Notes under the pieces: model-generated
Databases searched by the model: none
The model's input: only the letters and a program-made list of their open reading frames with translations
What the model was told of the DNA's origin: nothing
Part shown: in pieces, positions 3,764-9,258 of the stretch
Numbering within the stretch: position 1 is the first letter of the stretch
How the letters are laid out: each line of letters opens with the position of its first letter
Made by a program: the position numbers and the translations under genes
NCBI GenBank assembly: GCA_946480785.1
Contig: CAMLLD010000078.1
Location: 1-30,914, forward strand
From: an uncultured Blastocatellia bacterium
Lineage (GTDB): Bacteria; Acidobacteriota; Blastocatellia; Pyrinomonadales; Pyrinomonadaceae
DNA length: 30,914 bases
Direction of reading: 5' to 3'

Positions 3764-5059
3764 TTAGATCACAGTACCGTCGGGGATGACGGCGTTCTTC
3801 GGCACGATGATGATGCTGTCGCGAATGAAATAGGAACCGTTTGGACCATCAGCCTCCGCCGTGCCGGCTTCATTCAGCAGCCGTGCGTTGGCGCCGATGC
3901 GCGCGTTCTTGTCGATGATTGCGCGCTTGACGACAGTTCCCTCGCTGATGCCGACGCGTGGCAGTCCCCGGCCCATATCGCTGCGCATCTCTTCAAACGT
4001 CTGATAGAAATCAGCGCCCATCATGTACGACGCGTCGATCTGCACGCCCTTCGAGATGCGGCTGCGCACACCGATTACGGAGTTCGTCACTTTCGCGCCA
4101 TTGATGATGCAACCGTCGCCGATGATCGAATCGTTGATCTCCGTCTCTTCGACTTTCGACGGCGGCAGGTAACGCGCGCGCGTGAACACGGGCGCTTCCG
4201 CGTCAAACAAATTGAACTTCGGAATCTTCGTCGTGAGATCGAGGTTCGCGCGATAGAACGCGTCGATCGTTCCGATGTCTTCCCAGTAACCGTCGAACAT
4301 AAACGCTTCCACATGTCCCGACGAGATCGCTGCGGGAATCACTTCCTTACCGAAGTCCATCCAGCTCGGATCCTCGCGCAGCAAACTCTCGAGCCGGTCA
4401 TACTTGAAAACGTAAATGCCCATCGACGCGAGAAACGGCCGGCGCTTCGCTTCGTTCGCATCGAGACCGAGTTGCGTCGTGTCGACCTGCATCGACATCA
4501 ACTCATCGCCTTTCGGCTTCTCTTTGAACTCGACGATGCGGCTGTGCTCGTCTGTTTTAAGTAAACCAAACTCACTCGCCGCGCGCGCCTCGCACGGAAT
4601 CACCGACACCGTCACGTCGGCATTCGAATCGTGATGGCGTTGCAGAAACTGGCGATAGTCCATGCGATAAAGATGATCGCCCGAGAGAATCAACAACGTG
4701 TCGATGCCCCAGTCTCTGATGTGCGGCAACACCTGCCGCACCGCGTCGGCAGTGCCCTGAAACCAGTGCGGGCTATCAGGCGTTTGCTCGGCCGCGAGCA
4801 CCTCGACAAAGCCGTCTGAGAATTGCGAGAAGCGATACGTCTGCGCGATGTGGCGATTGAGCGACGCGGAGTTGTACTGCGTTAGCACGAACGTGCGCAG
4901 GATGTCGGAGTTGATGCAGTTGGAGAGCGCGATGTCGACGAGTCGATATTTACCACCGAGCGGGACTGCGGGTTTGGAGCGTTGTTGCGTGAGCGGAAAG
5001 AGGCGATTACCGGCGCCACCGCCGAGAATGACAGCCAACAGTTTTGCGCTTGCAGGCAT
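3764..5059 (-). CDS. glgC: Glucose-1-phosphate adenylyltransferase (ADP-glucose pyrophosphorylase)
   Basis: A 431-residue protein of normal length. It makes ADP-glucose from ATP and glucose 1-phosphate, the committed step of bacterial glycogen synthesis in the cytoplasm. Visible signatures: the nucleotide-binding [12 protein letters not shown] (residues 13-24), [27 protein letters not shown] (98-109), [10 protein letters not shown] (126-135) and [10 protein letters not shown]. The C-terminal part (from about residue 290) has the hexapeptide-repeat pattern of a left-handed beta-helix ([25 protein letters not shown]). The start is 31 bp downstream of deoC with no strong ribosome binding site. 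No other glycogen genes are nearby, so its position after deoC/rpiB is notable; it may share their transcript. Confidence 0.95.
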
Positions 5060-5090: not shown

Positions 5091-5990
5091 TTAATACGCT
5101 AACGATCCCGACGCGACCGTCTTTTTACCCGCCGCTTCCTGCGCGATCTTCACGCCCACACTCGCGCCGATGCGCGTTGCGCCCGCTTCGACCATCTTGC
5201 GCGCGTCTTCGAGACCTTTCACGCCGCCCGAAGCTTTGACGCCGAGATCCGTTCCGACCGTGCGTCGCATTAACGCGACGTCGGCGACAGTCGCGCCGCC
5301 TTTTGAAAAGCCCGTCGAGGTTTTTACAAAGTCCGCGCCGGCTTTTTTCGCCGCGAGACATGCACGCACTTTTTCATCGTCGGTTAGGAGCGCCGTTTCA
5401 ATGATCACTTTGCAAATCGCGTCGTACTCGTGCGCGACTTCCGCCACCGAACGAATGTCGTGTTCGACGAGACAATCATCGCCGCTCTTCAACGCGCCGA
5501 CATTGATCACCATGTCGAGTTCGGTTGCGCCATCGAGCAGCGCGCGTCGTGCTTCGTAAGCTTTGACGTCAGGGAGGGTCGCGCCGAGTGGAAAACCGAT
5601 CACCGTGCAAACGGGCACGCCGCTGCCGCGCAGGTTACACGAAGCGACGCGCACCCACGTCGGGTTCACACAAACGGATGCAAACCGATAACTCGCCGCT
5701 TCCTGGCAAAGCTTTTTGATGTCTTCATCCGTCGCCTCGGGTTTCAACAGCGTGTGATCGATCAAGCTGGCCCATTCTCTCGCCGTCGCCGTCTCACCCA
5801 ACACGAGCCCGATGCGCGCCGCGCCCGCGTCGACGATGCGATGCATCCGTTCGGGGCAGCGATGAAAACACTCCGACGTACAGCCGCACATCGCGGCCTG
5901 CTCGACACCATCACCACTCAACCGCGCCACAATCGCGTCGGTGATCTGCTCGATTAATTTCTCGTAATCGCCGTTACTTGAGTAGGCCAT
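5091..5990 (-). CDS. deoC: Deoxyribose-phosphate aldolase with N-terminal helix and Cys cluster
   Basis: Class I aldolase cleaving 2-deoxyribose 5-phosphate to glyceraldehyde 3-phosphate and acetaldehyde. With the ATG at 5990 the protein has 299 residues, about 75 longer than usual; a TTG at 6011 is an alternative start. The core runs from about residue 76 ([12 protein letters not shown]). It has [14 protein letters not shown] with Asp159, VKTSTGFS with the Schiff-base Lys223, and VKASGGVK with the second catalytic Lys252. The extension starts with an amphipathic helix (residues 9-24, [16 protein letters not shown]), then a cluster of four cysteines (35, 37, 41, 45) in a [13 protein letters not shown] motif. 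The helix resembles BMC encapsulation peptides (inference). It starts 21 bases after the rpiB stop, so the two are surely one operon. Confidence 0.93.
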
Positions 5991-6011
5991 GAGACGAAAA
6001 GATTCTACCAA

Positions 6012-6794
6012 CTAACGTTGATACTGTCGCTGGATGGCGTCGATCTTGGCGACGCGCTTACGGTGGCGGTCTTCGGTGAGGTCGGTGGAGAGCCACGCGG
6101 TGACGATGTCGCGCATCTCGGCGCTCGTGATGGTTTTGCTGCCGAGTGTGAGGACGTTTGCGCCGTTGTGCTCGCGCGAATTCTTGGCCACGGTGACGGA
6201 GTAACAGGCCGCGGCGCGCACACCGGGAACTTTGTTCGCCGTCATCGCACTGCCGACTCCCGCGCCGTCGATGATGATCCCGAGATCCGAATTGCCCTCG
6301 GCTACAGCACGCGCGACGGCGTGCGCGAAGTCGGGATAATCGACTGCCTCTTCCGAGTCGGTGCCGAAATCCTGCACTTTGTGACCGAGTTGACCCAACA
6401 GGACCTTCAACTCCTCTTTCATCTTAAACCCGCCGTGGTCCGCACCGACGGCGATCAAATTAGCCCGCTTCGAGCCGCGGCGTGAGTTGCGCCGCACGAG
6501 TTGAATGTTCCGCTCTTTGATGATGTCGGCGGCGAGCGGTGTGAGTCGCGCGTCTTCGCCGATGCGCAACACCGCGCCGTCGTCCAACCCGCGCACATCG
6601 TCTTCAGTGATGACGCTTTTCGCCGACTCGTCGCGCGTCACAGCGCCGCTGCTCGGCGTTTCCGTTTCCGGTACGGTGTTGACGAAGCGCGTGGGCGTGC
6701 TGCTTTCAGGCGCGGCCGTTGTTTCAGACGCAGACCCGGCCTTTTCCAACACGTCGCGCACTAAAGCCCGAATTCGATCGCGAGTCTCATCCAT
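6012..6794 (-). CDS. rpiB: RpiB/LacA/LacB-family sugar-phosphate isomerase with BMC-like N-terminal extension
   Basis: A 260-residue protein. The isomerase domain begins at about residue 112 (IAVGADHGGFKMKEEL) and continues with FGTDSEEAVDYPDFAHAVA, the TANKVPGVRAA loop and SREHNGANVLTLGS. This family interconverts ribose 5-phosphate and ribulose 5-phosphate, or related sugar phosphates. The usual catalytic Cys of the ICGTG loop is replaced by Asp176 (IIIDGAGVG), so substrate or mechanism may differ. Residues 3-19 form an amphipathic helix (I8, L11, V12, V15, L16), followed by a Ser/Thr/Pro-rich linker (21-60). Residues 61-102 have ITEDDVR and RLTPLAAD, resembling my memory of the EutT N-terminus. 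Its ATG overlaps the end of the upstream nucleotidase gene by 8 bases, indicating translational coupling. Confidence 0.88.
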   Translation of the reverse strand: MDETRDRIRALVRDVLEKAGSASETTAAPESSTPTRFVNTVPETETPSSGAVTRDESAKSVITEDDVRGLDDGAVLRIGEDARLTPLAADIIKERNIQLVRRNSRRGSKRANLIAVGADHGGFKMKEELKVLLGQLGHKVQDFGTDSEEAVDYPDFAHAVARAVAEGNSDLGIIIDGAGVGSAMTANKVPGVRAAACYSVTVAKNSREHNGANVLTLGSKTITSAEMRDIVTAWLSTDLTEDRHRKRVAKIDAIQRQYQR

Positions 6795-7713
6795 TCTCGT
6801 CTCTCAAACGAAGCACGCGCCCGGTGGCCCCGACTAGTTTGCCGGTCCGGAACGTGAAGTCCATTCGCCCCACGTTGATGCCGCTCTTGCCGACCTGGAA
6901 GATCAACGTCTTCGCGCCGCACGGTTGTGTTTGCTCGGCGGGTTCATCCATGAACAGATGGCTGTGGCCGCTGGCGATGAAATCGATGCCGTCGACTTGC
7001 GCCGCGAGTTTCACGTCGTCGATGCCCGTGCTGGGCCGATCTTTGAAAGGGTAACCGAGATGCGACATGCAAACGACGAGCGCGCACCGCTCCTGTTCGC
7101 GCAGAGTCTTCACCACGTTTTTCGCAGCAATCACCGGATCGTTGTAAGTGATGCCCTTGAAGTTCTCGGGCGTGATGAGCGCGGTGGGACTGATGCCCAG
7201 ACCAAACAAGCCGATGCGTATGCCGCCGATGGTCTTCACGACGTACGGCTTGACGCGGCCTTCGAGCGCGGTGCCTTTCACGTCGTAGTTCGTCGACACG
7301 ATGTCGAAGTTGGCAAACTTCAACGCCGCCGCGAGTGCTTCGACGCCGTTGTCGAATTCGTGATTGCCGAGCGTGCTCGCATCGTAACCGATTGCCGACA
7401 TCGCTTTGTATTCGACTTCGCCGCGGTAGAAGTTGAAGTACGGCGTGCCTTGCAGCACGTCGCCCGCGTCGATCAGCAGCGTGTTAGGATTTTCTTTGCG
7501 AATGCGTTTGACGAGTGTAGCGCGACGCGCAACGCCGCCCTTCCCTGCGTTGCGGTCGTTCGGTGGAAGCGGATCGATCTGCGAGTGCGTGTCGTTTGTG
7601 TGCAGGATCGTGATGACGACTTCATCCGCCGCGAAAGCGACGCTACGTGGCAGCGTGACGAGTGCCGCGCCGAAGATCGCGGACGACCTCAGAAACTTTC
7701 GCCGATCGATCAT
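6787..7713 (-). CDS. 5'-nucleotidase metallophosphatase domain protein (UshA N-domain), Tat-exported
   Basis: A 308-residue protein. The N-terminus has a twin-arginine signal (MIDRRKFLRSSAIFGAAL). The rest is the metallophosphatase half of the UshA/5'-nucleotidase family: ILHTNDTHSQIDP (first metal ligands), LIDAGDVLQGTPYFN, STLGNHEFDNG (catalytic NHE) and FIASGHSHL. The protein stops where the C-terminal substrate-binding domain would normally begin; that domain is encoded by the gene immediately upstream, whose stop overlaps this start in an ATGA. By family it hydrolyses 5'-nucleotides or other phosphate esters in the periplasm with a two-metal centre. It presumably works together with the neighbouring C-domain protein. 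Confidence 0.9.
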   Translation of the reverse strand: MIDRRKFLRSSAIFGAALVTLPRSVAFAADEVVITILHTNDTHSQIDPLPPNDRNAGKGGVARRATLVKRIRKENPNTLLIDAGDVLQGTPYFNFYRGEVEYKAMSAIGYDASTLGNHEFDNGVEALAAALKFANFDIVSTNYDVKGTALEGRVKPYVVKTIGGIRIGLFGLGISPTALITPENFKGITYNDPVIAAKNVVKTLREQERCALVVCMSHLGYPFKDRPSTGIDDVKLAAQVDGIDFIASGHSHLFMDEPAEQTQPCGAKTLIFQVGKSGINVGRMDFTFRTGKLVGATGRVLRLRDENG

Positions 7714-8597
7714 CGCGGTTCCTCCGGTGTGCCTTTCGGTCTTGGTCCAACCTGCACGTAACGATTGTCAACGTGCGCGCGAATCACGCGGCCCGCGGCG
7801 GTTTCGCTTTTCACGTATTCCATCATCGCGTCGCGCAACGTGATGTTCAGCGGCGTCACCGATTTTGCTTCCTTGAGCACGGCGTAAGCGCCGCCGCCGA
7901 CTTTCAACAGGTAATCGATCGTGACGATCGTGTAGAGCTTGTTGGGATCGATCTCCTGCTCGTGTCCCTCGGCGTCGATCAATTTGCCGCTGAGGAAGTC
8001 CGGCCGGTTCTGATCGTTCCACTTGTACTGCAGCCGCGCGCCCGACTGCGCGTCGCGCACGAGGGGAGGTAACAGCTTCAGCAAGTTCGCGCCGCTGATC
8101 TCTACGACCATCAACGCGTTTTCAAACGGCAGCAGTTCGAAGACGTCGGACGCACGCAGTTCGCCTTCGGAAATCGTGTTCTTGCGCAGGCCGCCGGCGT
8201 TCATGATCGTGAGATCAACGCGCTCGCCGAGTTTGCTTTCCGCGTAAGCTCTGATGCCGTCGGTGACGAAGTTTCCTAACGTGCCCGCGCCGACTGGCTC
8301 TTTCTTCAACGGATGGTCCAGGCGGCCGATGACGTTACTCAGTGCGCGCACCTTCGCGCTGTAAGGCGCGAGTAGTTTCTCCATTTCCGGATCGGCCGGA
8401 ATGCTTTCGTCGACGACTATCTGGGAGCTGCGAACGCCGATCTTGACGGGCGCGTTGCTGGTTGCGGGTTTGGCTGGACTCGGCGTTGCTTCACACGGTT
8501 GGATCGCGGTTGTTTGTGCGAGCGCCGGTATGCTGAAGGCAGCGAGCGCAACGACGAGCAGCAGAGTGCGAATGGAATAGTTGGGGCTATGACGCAT
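7710..8597 (-). CDS. 5'-nucleotidase C-terminal domain protein (UshA C-domain)
   Basis: With the ATG at 8597 the product has 295 residues and starts with a Sec signal peptide (SIRTLLLVVALAAFSIPALAQ). A Pro/Ala-rich linker follows, then a 5'-nucleotidase C-terminal domain: VGAGTLGNFVTDGIR, MNAGGLRKNTISEGELRASDVFELLPFENALMVVEISG, and a YTIVTIDYLLKVGGGAYAVL segment near the end. In UshA this domain supplies the nucleoside-binding pocket but no metal site, so alone it should not be catalytic. An alternative ATG at 8642 would add 15 non-signal-like residues. Its stop overlaps the start of the metallophosphatase gene by 4 bases (ATGA). Confidence 0.88.
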   Translation of the reverse strand: MRHSPNYSIRTLLLVVALAAFSIPALAQTTAIQPCEATPSPAKPATSNAPVKIGVRSSQIVVDESIPADPEMEKLLAPYSAKVRALSNVIGRLDHPLKKEPVGAGTLGNFVTDGIRAYAESKLGERVDLTIMNAGGLRKNTISEGELRASDVFELLPFENALMVVEISGANLLKLLPPLVRDAQSGARLQYKWNDQNRPDFLSGKLIDAEGHEQEIDPNKLYTIVTIDYLLKVGGGAYAVLKEAKSVTPLNITLRDAMMEYVKSETAAGRVIRAHVDNRYVQVGPRPKGTPEEPR

Positions 8598-8676
8598 TGA
8601 CCTAAAGGAAGAGCTTGCATAGTATGTCGCACCACACGGCACACAGGCAAACGTCTTGCAAAATCAATCCGGGCAC

Positions 8677-8685
8677 GAGAAGGAG
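8677..8685 (+). promoter_or_regulatory. Ribosome binding site that fixes the hpt start at TTG 8692
   Basis: A purine-rich GAGAAGGAG ends 6 bases before the TTG at 8692. No comparable site precedes the earlier in-frame TTG at 8656. Confidence 0.6.
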
Positions 8686-8691
8686 AACGAG

Positions 8692-9258
8692 TTGGCTACC
8701 TCTTCAGCGCAAGTCACTTCGGAATTCAGCAACCCCAACCTGCAAGTCCTGCTGTCAGAGGAACAGATTCGCGCTCGCATCAACGAACTCGGCGCGCAGA
8801 TCACGCGCGATTACGCTGGGCTGAATCCGCTGCTGATCGGCGTGTTGAAAGGCGCGTGCTTTTTTCTCAGCGATCTGATGCGCGCGATCGACACGCGCTT
8901 GAGTCTCGAGTTCATGGCGATTTCGAGTTACGGATCTTCGACGCGGACTTCGGGTGAAGTTCGCATCATGAAAGATCTCGACGTGCCGATCGAGGGCCGT
9001 CACATACTCGTCGTCGAGGACATAGTCGATACGGGGCTCACGCTTTCGTACCTGCTGGCGAACCTGCACGCGCGCGGCGCCGCGAGTGTGAAGCTGGCGG
9101 CGCTGCTCGATAAATTTGAGCGGCGGCAGAAGGAAGTGCCGATTGACTATCTCGGCTTTCAGATTCCTGACGAATTCGTCGTCGGTTACGGTCTGGATTT
9201 TGCCGAACGCTACCGCAACCTGCCTTTCATCGCTGTCCTGAAAAACCCCGAGGCGTAG
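8692..9258 (+). CDS. hpt: Hypoxanthine phosphoribosyltransferase
   Basis: A 188-residue protein starting at TTG 8692 by its ribosome binding site. It transfers phosphoribose from PRPP to hypoxanthine or guanine (purine salvage, cytoplasm). Signatures: PLLIGVLKGACFFLSDLMR (residues 47-64), the MAISSYGSST flexible-loop segment, the PRPP motif VVEDIVDTGLTL (107-118) and the C-terminal FVVGYGLDFAERYRNLPFIAVL with the purine-contacting region. The length is normal. It is divergent from the split 5'-nucleotidase operon (94 bp between starts) and is followed after 4 bp by the metallo-hydrolase gene. Its position beside deoxyribose and nucleotide-hydrolysis genes fits a purine salvage role. Confidence 0.94.
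   Translation: MATSSAQVTSEFSNPNLQVLLSEEQIRARINELGAQITRDYAGLNPLLIGVLKGACFFLSDLMRAIDTRLSLEFMAISSYGSSTRTSGEVRIMKDLDVPIEGRHILVVEDIVDTGLTLSYLLANLHARGAASVKLAALLDKFERRQKEVPIDYLGFQIPDEFVVGYGLDFAERYRNLPFIAVLKNPEA

Follow-up and report, generated by a model that had tools for sequence, protein, structure and literature searches.

The window, by which we mean the whole 30,914-nucleotide stretch of DNA analysed here, contains a run of minus-strand genes that are all read in one direction and encode a split 5'-nucleotidase, an RpiB-like protein, DeoC and GlgC, together with a divergent gene for hypoxanthine phosphoribosyltransferase (HGPRT). Both genes of the DeoC/RpiB-like pair lie where the original prediction had placed them. 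Gene-level study covered the window up to about 10.2 kb plus two further genes for a synteny check, and profile searches covered the whole window. The genes of interest are as follows.

3764..5059, minus strand: GlgC, downstream of the pair and in the same direction
5091..5990, minus strand: DeoC, deoxyribose-phosphate aldolase with an N-terminal extension (ATG start at 5990; the listed TTG open reading frame starts at 6011)
6012..6794, minus strand: RpiB-like protein, consisting of helix, linker, module and isomerase (family models and AlphaFold)
6787..7713, minus strand: metallophosphatase half of the split 5'-nucleotidase (8-base overlap with the RpiB start)
7710..8642, minus strand: 5_nucleotid_C half of the split 5'-nucleotidase
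8656..9258, plus strand: HGPRT, divergent (TIGR01203)

The nearest named proteins and contigs to the window are those of Pyrinomonadaceae. Relatives of the locus were compared as a set of 80 loci (L numbers), the best 80 of 567 DeoC relatives found in genome contigs. An RpiB-like frame is present in 64 of the 80 (24 of the first 26) and is fused to DeoC in two. A match to the window HGPRT lies near the RpiB/DeoC pair in 41 of the 80 and reaches beyond Pyrinomonadaceae; GlgC and the split nucleotidase lie close to the pair in some of the Pyrinomonadaceae relatives. The 5'-nucleotidase, which is encoded by two overlapping genes in the window, also occupies two frames in L002–L004, L006–L008 and L012.

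DeoC matches TIGR00126 at 285.1 bits (cut-off 117.3), with the match starting near residue 73 (ATG numbering) and the upstream part forming extra sequence. Translation probably starts at the ATG at 5990 and not at the TTG at 6011, because aligned homologues start at or near that Met. D159, K223 and K252, which we take to be the catalytic residues, are invariant columns across 79 sequences. AlphaFold places a helix at residues 7–25 (pLDDT 73 over residues 11–20, lower at the ends), followed by a low-confidence stretch to about residue 62, and an EQITD..ARL pattern is conserved in the helix of aligned relatives.

5916..5972, minus strand: DeoC N-terminal helix, residues 7–25, putative encapsulation peptide (AF2; similar helix in shell-adjoining DeoC)
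5856..5888, minus strand: four-cysteine stretch of the DeoC extension, residues 35–45
5142..5774, minus strand: DeoC catalytic domain (TIGR00126)

At least four cysteines occur in the DeoC extension of 56 of the 72 scored extended loci (L050 and L063 left out), and the cysteine-rich stretch is a possible metal site. Across the window and L001–L077, the stretch is of the CxC type in many Acidobacteriota; a ferredoxin-like CxxCxxCxxxCP is present in L032, L047, L049, L054 and L062, and L015–L029 and L065 have two cysteines or fewer. In one relative (L024:5006-5899), a single in-frame TAG breaks the DeoC frame in that assembly.

RpiB models match the RpiB-like protein only from residue 114 on (PF02502; TIGR01120 at 144.5 bits, cut-off 138.65). 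The parts of the protein are listed from the N-terminus, with the codon of one active-site residue at the end.

6738..6791, minus strand: N-terminal helix, residues 2–19, putative encapsulation peptide (AF2, pLDDT 82–83)
6639..6737, minus strand: Ser/Thr/Pro-rich disordered linker, about residues 20–52 (pLDDT <50 for most)
6489..6638, minus strand: 50-residue module, residues 53–102 (AF2, pLDDT 84 at the start, then 93–96)
6042..6455, minus strand: RpiB isomerase domain, residues 114–251 (PF02502)
6267..6269, minus strand: Asp176 codon, at the position of catalytic Cys66 of E. coli RpiB

Both proteins thus have, in the AlphaFold models, the form of bacterial microcompartment (BMC) cargo, a terminal helix of 15–20 residues on a flexible linker, and helix plus linker is the form described for encapsulation peptides (PMC8217296). 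The original prediction had proposed that each protein carries an N-terminal extension starting with a short amphipathic helix, followed in the RpiB-like protein by a Ser/Thr/Pro-rich linker and by the motifs ITEDDVR and RLTPLAAD within residues 61–102. The starts of the family matches and the AlphaFold models agree with the extensions and helices, the linker is as described, and the motifs fall at residues 62–68 and 83–90. Amphipathicity is the weak point: neither the DeoC nor the RpiB-like helix, taken singly, has a hydrophobic moment above shuffles (22% of shuffles as high). Amphipathicity was therefore rejected as proof of encapsulation peptides, and the case rests on conservation and company. 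The extensions of the pair are kept in aligned homologues (80–96% identity), variable linkers apart, and are recognisable in other phyla.

The catalytic Cys that is a canonical feature of RpiB (E. coli Cys66) is missing from the window protein. Among 70 aligned rows, many of them close relatives, this position is Asp in 69, the window included, with one gap, and the position of E. coli Thr68 is Ala in 66. Motif scoring likewise returns Asp in 63 of 63 scored RpiB-like proteins, two being unscored. The partner RpiB copy is of the Asp type in all six relatives with the pair that were read, and the other RpiB copies keep Cys in 18 of 18 read: seven in four pair-bearing genomes, five in five shell-less members of the class searched below, and six in five Bacillaceae. 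One further weak RpiB match, in genome G047, lies outside this Cys/Asp scoring. Judged by sequence, the Asp-type partner RpiB is a distinct subclass. In characterised RpiB, the base is reported to be Cys, with a neighbouring Thr as the O2-to-O1 proton shuttle; in the M. tuberculosis enzyme, the base is Glu75, so that an acid at another position can serve (PMC4783025, PMC3212906). Asp may simply be the base in the partner RpiB, or the chemistry may differ. As 2-deoxyribose has no 2-OH, the RpiB-like carrier may not isomerise pentose phosphates at all; our guess is that it opens the deoxyribose 5-phosphate ring for DeoC. The Cys-to-Asp change provides a marker for the partner RpiB and a testable question in enzymology.

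The module between linker and isomerase resembles parts of known microcompartment proteins. A profile of the RpiB module ranks E. coli EutT residues 2–45 best of 3,913 sequences, 13 real and 3,900 shuffled (E 2.8e-4; best shuffle 1.1), and hhalign gives 79% for the module against EutT; the proposed likeness of residues 61–102 to the EutT N-terminus is thereby borne out. A module of the same kind forms the C-terminus of an aldehyde dehydrogenase (ALDH) encoded in satellite shell loci of relatives (9 loci; hhalign 92.6%, E 4.5e-7). Against 18,950 NCBIfam models at E 0.01, RpiB modules match only TIGR02536 (19/20), two PduM models (9/20 and 3/20) and EutT (4/20), and ALDH modules match only TIGR02536 (7/9) and EutT (1/9), with every family match scoring below the curated cut-off for its full-length family. 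The likeness falls at the C-terminus of PduM and TIGR02536 and at the N-terminus of EutT. Within Pfam, the RpiB modules reach only PF15953 (PduM-type; 7/20, below cut-off), no family of the module's own was seen, and E. coli EutQ 1–84 and EutT 1–94 fall outside Pfam matches. A sequence search for a solved structure of the module returned none that is convincing, the best match being a phosphoserine phosphatase (E 0.46).

The likeness to EutQ is less direct. The ALDH module profile places EutQ and then EutT first of the 3,913 sequences, weakly (E 0.031 and 0.17; best shuffle 0.33), and hhalign gives 51% for the ALDH module against EutQ. Direct comparison of the RpiB module with EutQ is insignificant (hhalign 3.5%), and a combined RpiB and ALDH profile finds EutT at E 1.2e-6, with EutQ missing from its seven best matches. 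E. coli EutQ 1–49 matches TIGR02536 at the same place (E 0.0012). The EutQ link thus runs via the ALDH module and TIGR02536, since the RpiB module has no significant direct match. In Salmonella EutQ, residues 9–41 contact the shell and residues 62–99 contact cargo peptides (PMC12487888). PduM bears an N-terminal signal helix, comparable to the putative one of the RpiB-like protein; absence of PduM partly separates core and shell, and a 2025 study described PduM as lacking known homologues by sequence outside Pdu compartments (PMC12108088). The module is therefore like the EutT N-terminus (2–45), the PduM C-terminus and, less surely, EutQ 4–39, but unlike in EutQ, EutT and PduM it occurs here as a fusion with a sugar-phosphate enzyme and with an ALDH. 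The least certain step of our analysis is that the module would be a shell-side linker, a role taken here by the RpiB-like protein and the ALDH. If true, a shared module would account for the way in which PduM and EutQ both keep shell and core joined.

Locally built BMC-H and BMC-P profiles detect no shell genes in the whole window, in agreement with the original prediction. The window likewise has no satellite-ALDH match at E 1e-10, and there is no aldehyde dehydrogenase among the ten window proteins scanned. Similar pairs do adjoin shell genes in other loci. Shell genes are present in the surrounding contig DNA of 12 of the 80 DeoC loci (L036, L050, L053, L056, L059, L061, L063, L066, L071–L073 and L076), and ten of these 12, mostly from Chloroflexota, also have an RpiB-like gene. 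The shell-adjoining DeoC carries the same kind of extension where scored (L050 and L063 lack the scoring motif), and an N-terminal helix stretch can be seen by eye in shell-adjoining RpiB, for example in L036, L050, L053, L056 and L071. Inspection by eye finds helix, linker and module in four of the ten shell-adjoining RpiB-like proteins (L036, L050, L053 and L071), and helix and linker, with no visible module, in the other six. None of L001–L029 has shell genes in its surrounding contig DNA, several of these contigs being short.

Shell genes were also sought in 49 genomes (G numbers) behind 50 of the 80 loci, all of them relatives, the window's own genome not being among them. BMC-H is present in 44 of 44 non-Bacillaceae genomes versus none of five Bacillaceae with unextended DeoC, and BMC-P in 40 of the 44. 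The expected shell genes elsewhere in the genome are thus found, in relatives. Across the 162 genomes of the class of G002, BMC-H is present in 153, DeoC in 142, the DeoC-extension profile in 133 and the RpiB module in 138; neither the profile nor the module matched in any of the nine members without BMC-H. When DeoC-bearing genomes of this class are tallied, the extension profile occurs in 130 of 134 with shell genes versus 0 of 8 without. The four shell-bearing exceptions are G069, with a 291-aa DeoC frame and perhaps a divergent extension, G086, with a partial match, G136, in which DeoC is cut by the contig start, and G175, with a truly short 235-aa frame and shell genes present. Six of the eight genomes with DeoC and no shell have DeoC frames of 223–258 aa from which the extension is absent. 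The remaining two, G065 and G066, have a divergent helix-type DeoC extension by eye and no BMC-H or BMC-P above cut-off, which argues against a strict rule. The possibility that extensions are equally common without BMC genes is therefore countered by the profile (0 of 9 members lacking BMC-H) and retained in part by these two genomes. The shell-less genomes are probably a few clades, so that the contrast would amount to few independent events. In at least six genomes, the extended DeoC is accompanied by a second DeoC frame that is short. Pair and shell locus lie on one contig in G002:C15, about 110 kb apart, and in G017:C6, about 78 kb apart, which makes a binning artefact less likely. A divergent DeoC extension is also seen in L142 and L143 (G067 and G066); shell genes are weak in G067 and undetected in G065 and G066, and the three genomes perhaps hold a compartment in decay.

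The main shell locus of G002, G004 and G017 (L111, L113 and L119) encodes a PF00596 aldolase, a protein with PF06971 and PF02629 that is presumably a Rex-like regulator, BMC-H, three BMC-P and a small protein; the Pfam scan was run on L111 and the likeness carried to L113 and L119 by BLAST. A helix-type peptide can be seen by eye at the C-terminus of the class II aldolase (PF00596) of L111, and another at the N-terminus of the small protein. This small protein (L111:8863-9297 and L113:8794-9384) is encoded beside the BMC-P genes and has a helix-type start and a Cys-rich C-terminus (CDHCAMCSSRGF); its L111 copy has no family above cut-off. Satellite loci encode BMC-H, the ALDH, BMC-P, an ACT-domain protein and DUF711. 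The ACT-domain protein adjoins the satellite shell genes and DUF711 at L114:8583-9065 and L118:5348-5827; in the L114 copy, a helix-type start can be made out by eye.

TIGR02518, the model of acetylating acetaldehyde dehydrogenase, gives the satellite ALDH 593 bits, short of its cut-off of 620. This model reaches 490–603 bits in 23 of 24 shell-bearing genomes (the exception is G012) versus 53 bits or fewer in four shell-less ones, and also weakly matches other dehydrogenases in all 14 control genomes. The likeness of the satellite ALDH to acetaldehyde dehydrogenases agrees with the product of DeoC, acetaldehyde. A PduL-type PTAC is absent from all 28 genomes, 24 of them shell-bearing; PduL was accordingly rejected as the CoA-recycling enzyme, a point against the compartment reading.

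These shell loci correspond to the ACI type, which is described as having a class II aldolase with a C-terminal peptide, BMC-H, a BMC-P triplet, an ALDH on a satellite and a hydroxyacid dehydrogenase (PMC8217296). The relatives have the PF00596 aldolase with its C-terminal helix-type peptide, the BMC-P triplet, at least one BMC-H and the satellite ALDH (L112, L114 and others); the hydroxyacid dehydrogenase (PF00389/PF02826) of the ACI definition was not found among 20 proteins scanned from the relatives' shell and satellite loci. The catalogue counts 125 ACI loci, from Acidobacteria only, and places ACI in the group of types that possess an ALDH but no enzyme obviously generating the aldehyde; its main text names no DeoC/RpiB for ACI (PMC8217296). 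The original prediction had assigned the compartment to the sugar-phosphate-utilising (SPU) class on the strength of the pair. That a DeoC/RpiB pair is the SPU signature agrees with the description in the catalogue (PMC8217296), and the window has both the PF01791 DeoC and the PF02502 RpiB; of the further features of an SPU locus, shell genes and ALDH are absent from the window, and the shell is distal in relatives. The class assignment itself found no support, the relatives' shell loci answering to the ACI description, and an SPU shell in the Pyrinomonadaceae relatives was rejected on the ACI-type gene content of the loci read. The locus thus shares with SPU BMC loci the PF01791/PF02502 pair and an ALDH of the acetaldehyde kind (PMC8217296, PMC4207490), but differs in that the pair is detached from shell genes and the relatives' shell loci resemble ACI, their partners being a class II aldolase, DUF711 and an ACT-domain protein. 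The SPU signature pair apparently works here as a detached locus beside an ACI-type shell. HO BMCs also have a distal PF01791 enzyme, in some cases with an N-terminal extension like an encapsulation peptide, but are those of Haliangium and other Myxobacteria, and no RpiB partner is mentioned in the catalogue's account of them (PMC8217296). A literature search of titles and the beginnings of abstracts, with subscription papers and supplements (the catalogue's Supplementary Data 2 included) outside its range, found no paper on ACI plus DeoC, on an Asp-type RpiB or on this module across families.

We consider it likely that the pair forms a cargo locus detached from its BMC, whose ACI-type shell is encoded elsewhere, with the module tying cargo to shell. 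Gene content, extensions, sharing of the module, co-occurrence with shell genes and similar pairs beside shell genes are observed directly, and the co-occurrence in relatives supports the original claim of BMC cargo with distant shell genes. From these observations we infer that the two enzymes are encapsulated and that the module links cargo to shell, and likewise the nature of the substrate and the presence of a shell in the window's own cell. DeoC and the RpiB-like protein would be encoded in a nucleotide-salvage cluster (split 5'-nucleotidase and adjoining HGPRT), and their N-terminal helices would gather them with other cargo of the distal ACI-type shell. The RpiB-like module may help to tie this cargo to the shell, by analogy with the EutQ N-terminus, which binds shell and cargo peptides in Eut compartments (PMC12487888). 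The start of the nucleotidase is twin-arginine-like by eye, and this together with the gene neighbourhood suggests that nucleotide scavenging feeds the compartment.

Other explanations of the pair fit less of the evidence. A true SPU compartment, with an SPU shell in the window's genome from which the signature pair has moved away, would account for pairs of the same kind beside shell genes in 10 of the 80 loci, mostly from Chloroflexota, which fit the SPU description (PMC8217296). The shell loci of Pyrinomonadaceae relatives nevertheless carry the PF00596 aldolase, BMC-P triplet and satellite ALDH of the ACI description, and L001–L029, several on short contigs, have no shell genes in the surrounding DNA, making this explanation improbable. 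It is quite improbable that the extensions are relics, inherited from an SPU ancestor by enzymes that are now cytosolic. Such decay could be read into the distance of the pair genes from shell loci, the fewer cysteines left in L015–L029, and G065 and G066, which keep the extension without detected shell genes; yet the extension is conserved in close homologues and absent from six shell-less genomes with short DeoC frames, the module is common to the RpiB-like protein and the satellite ALDH, and a short DeoC accompanies the extended one in at least six genomes. Encapsulation peptides alone can drive cargo condensation (PMC12339742), so the extensions might instead build a metabolon of DeoC, RpiB and ALDH with no shell-loading role, but co-occurrence with shell genes and the limitation of module matches to BMC families at E 0.01 render this highly improbable.

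If the pair is detached cargo of an ACI-type shell, DeoC and its partner may provide the aldehyde-making enzymes that have been missing from an acidobacterial organelle. The tagged pair, conserved in most of the class searched, would supply ACI with its aldehyde-making enzyme, and points to nucleic-acid sugars as the ACI substrate. A wider joint reading is tentative, and somewhat unlikely to hold in all its parts. A single 45-residue core–shell linking module would be present in EutQ, EutT, PduM, TIGR02536, part of the compartment-type RpiB-like proteins and the ACI ALDH, doing the job of EutQ where EutQ is missing. The RpiB-like protein would be an Asp/Ala subclass that serves as ring opener for DeoC or acts chiefly as an adaptor; together with DeoC it would provide the missing ACI signature enzymes, and the organelle would be one for nucleic-acid sugars. 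A separate, unexpected match concerns EutQ itself: residues 1–83 of the E. coli protein (L123:8755-9004) match the start of the EutA model NF007991 (E 1e-8).
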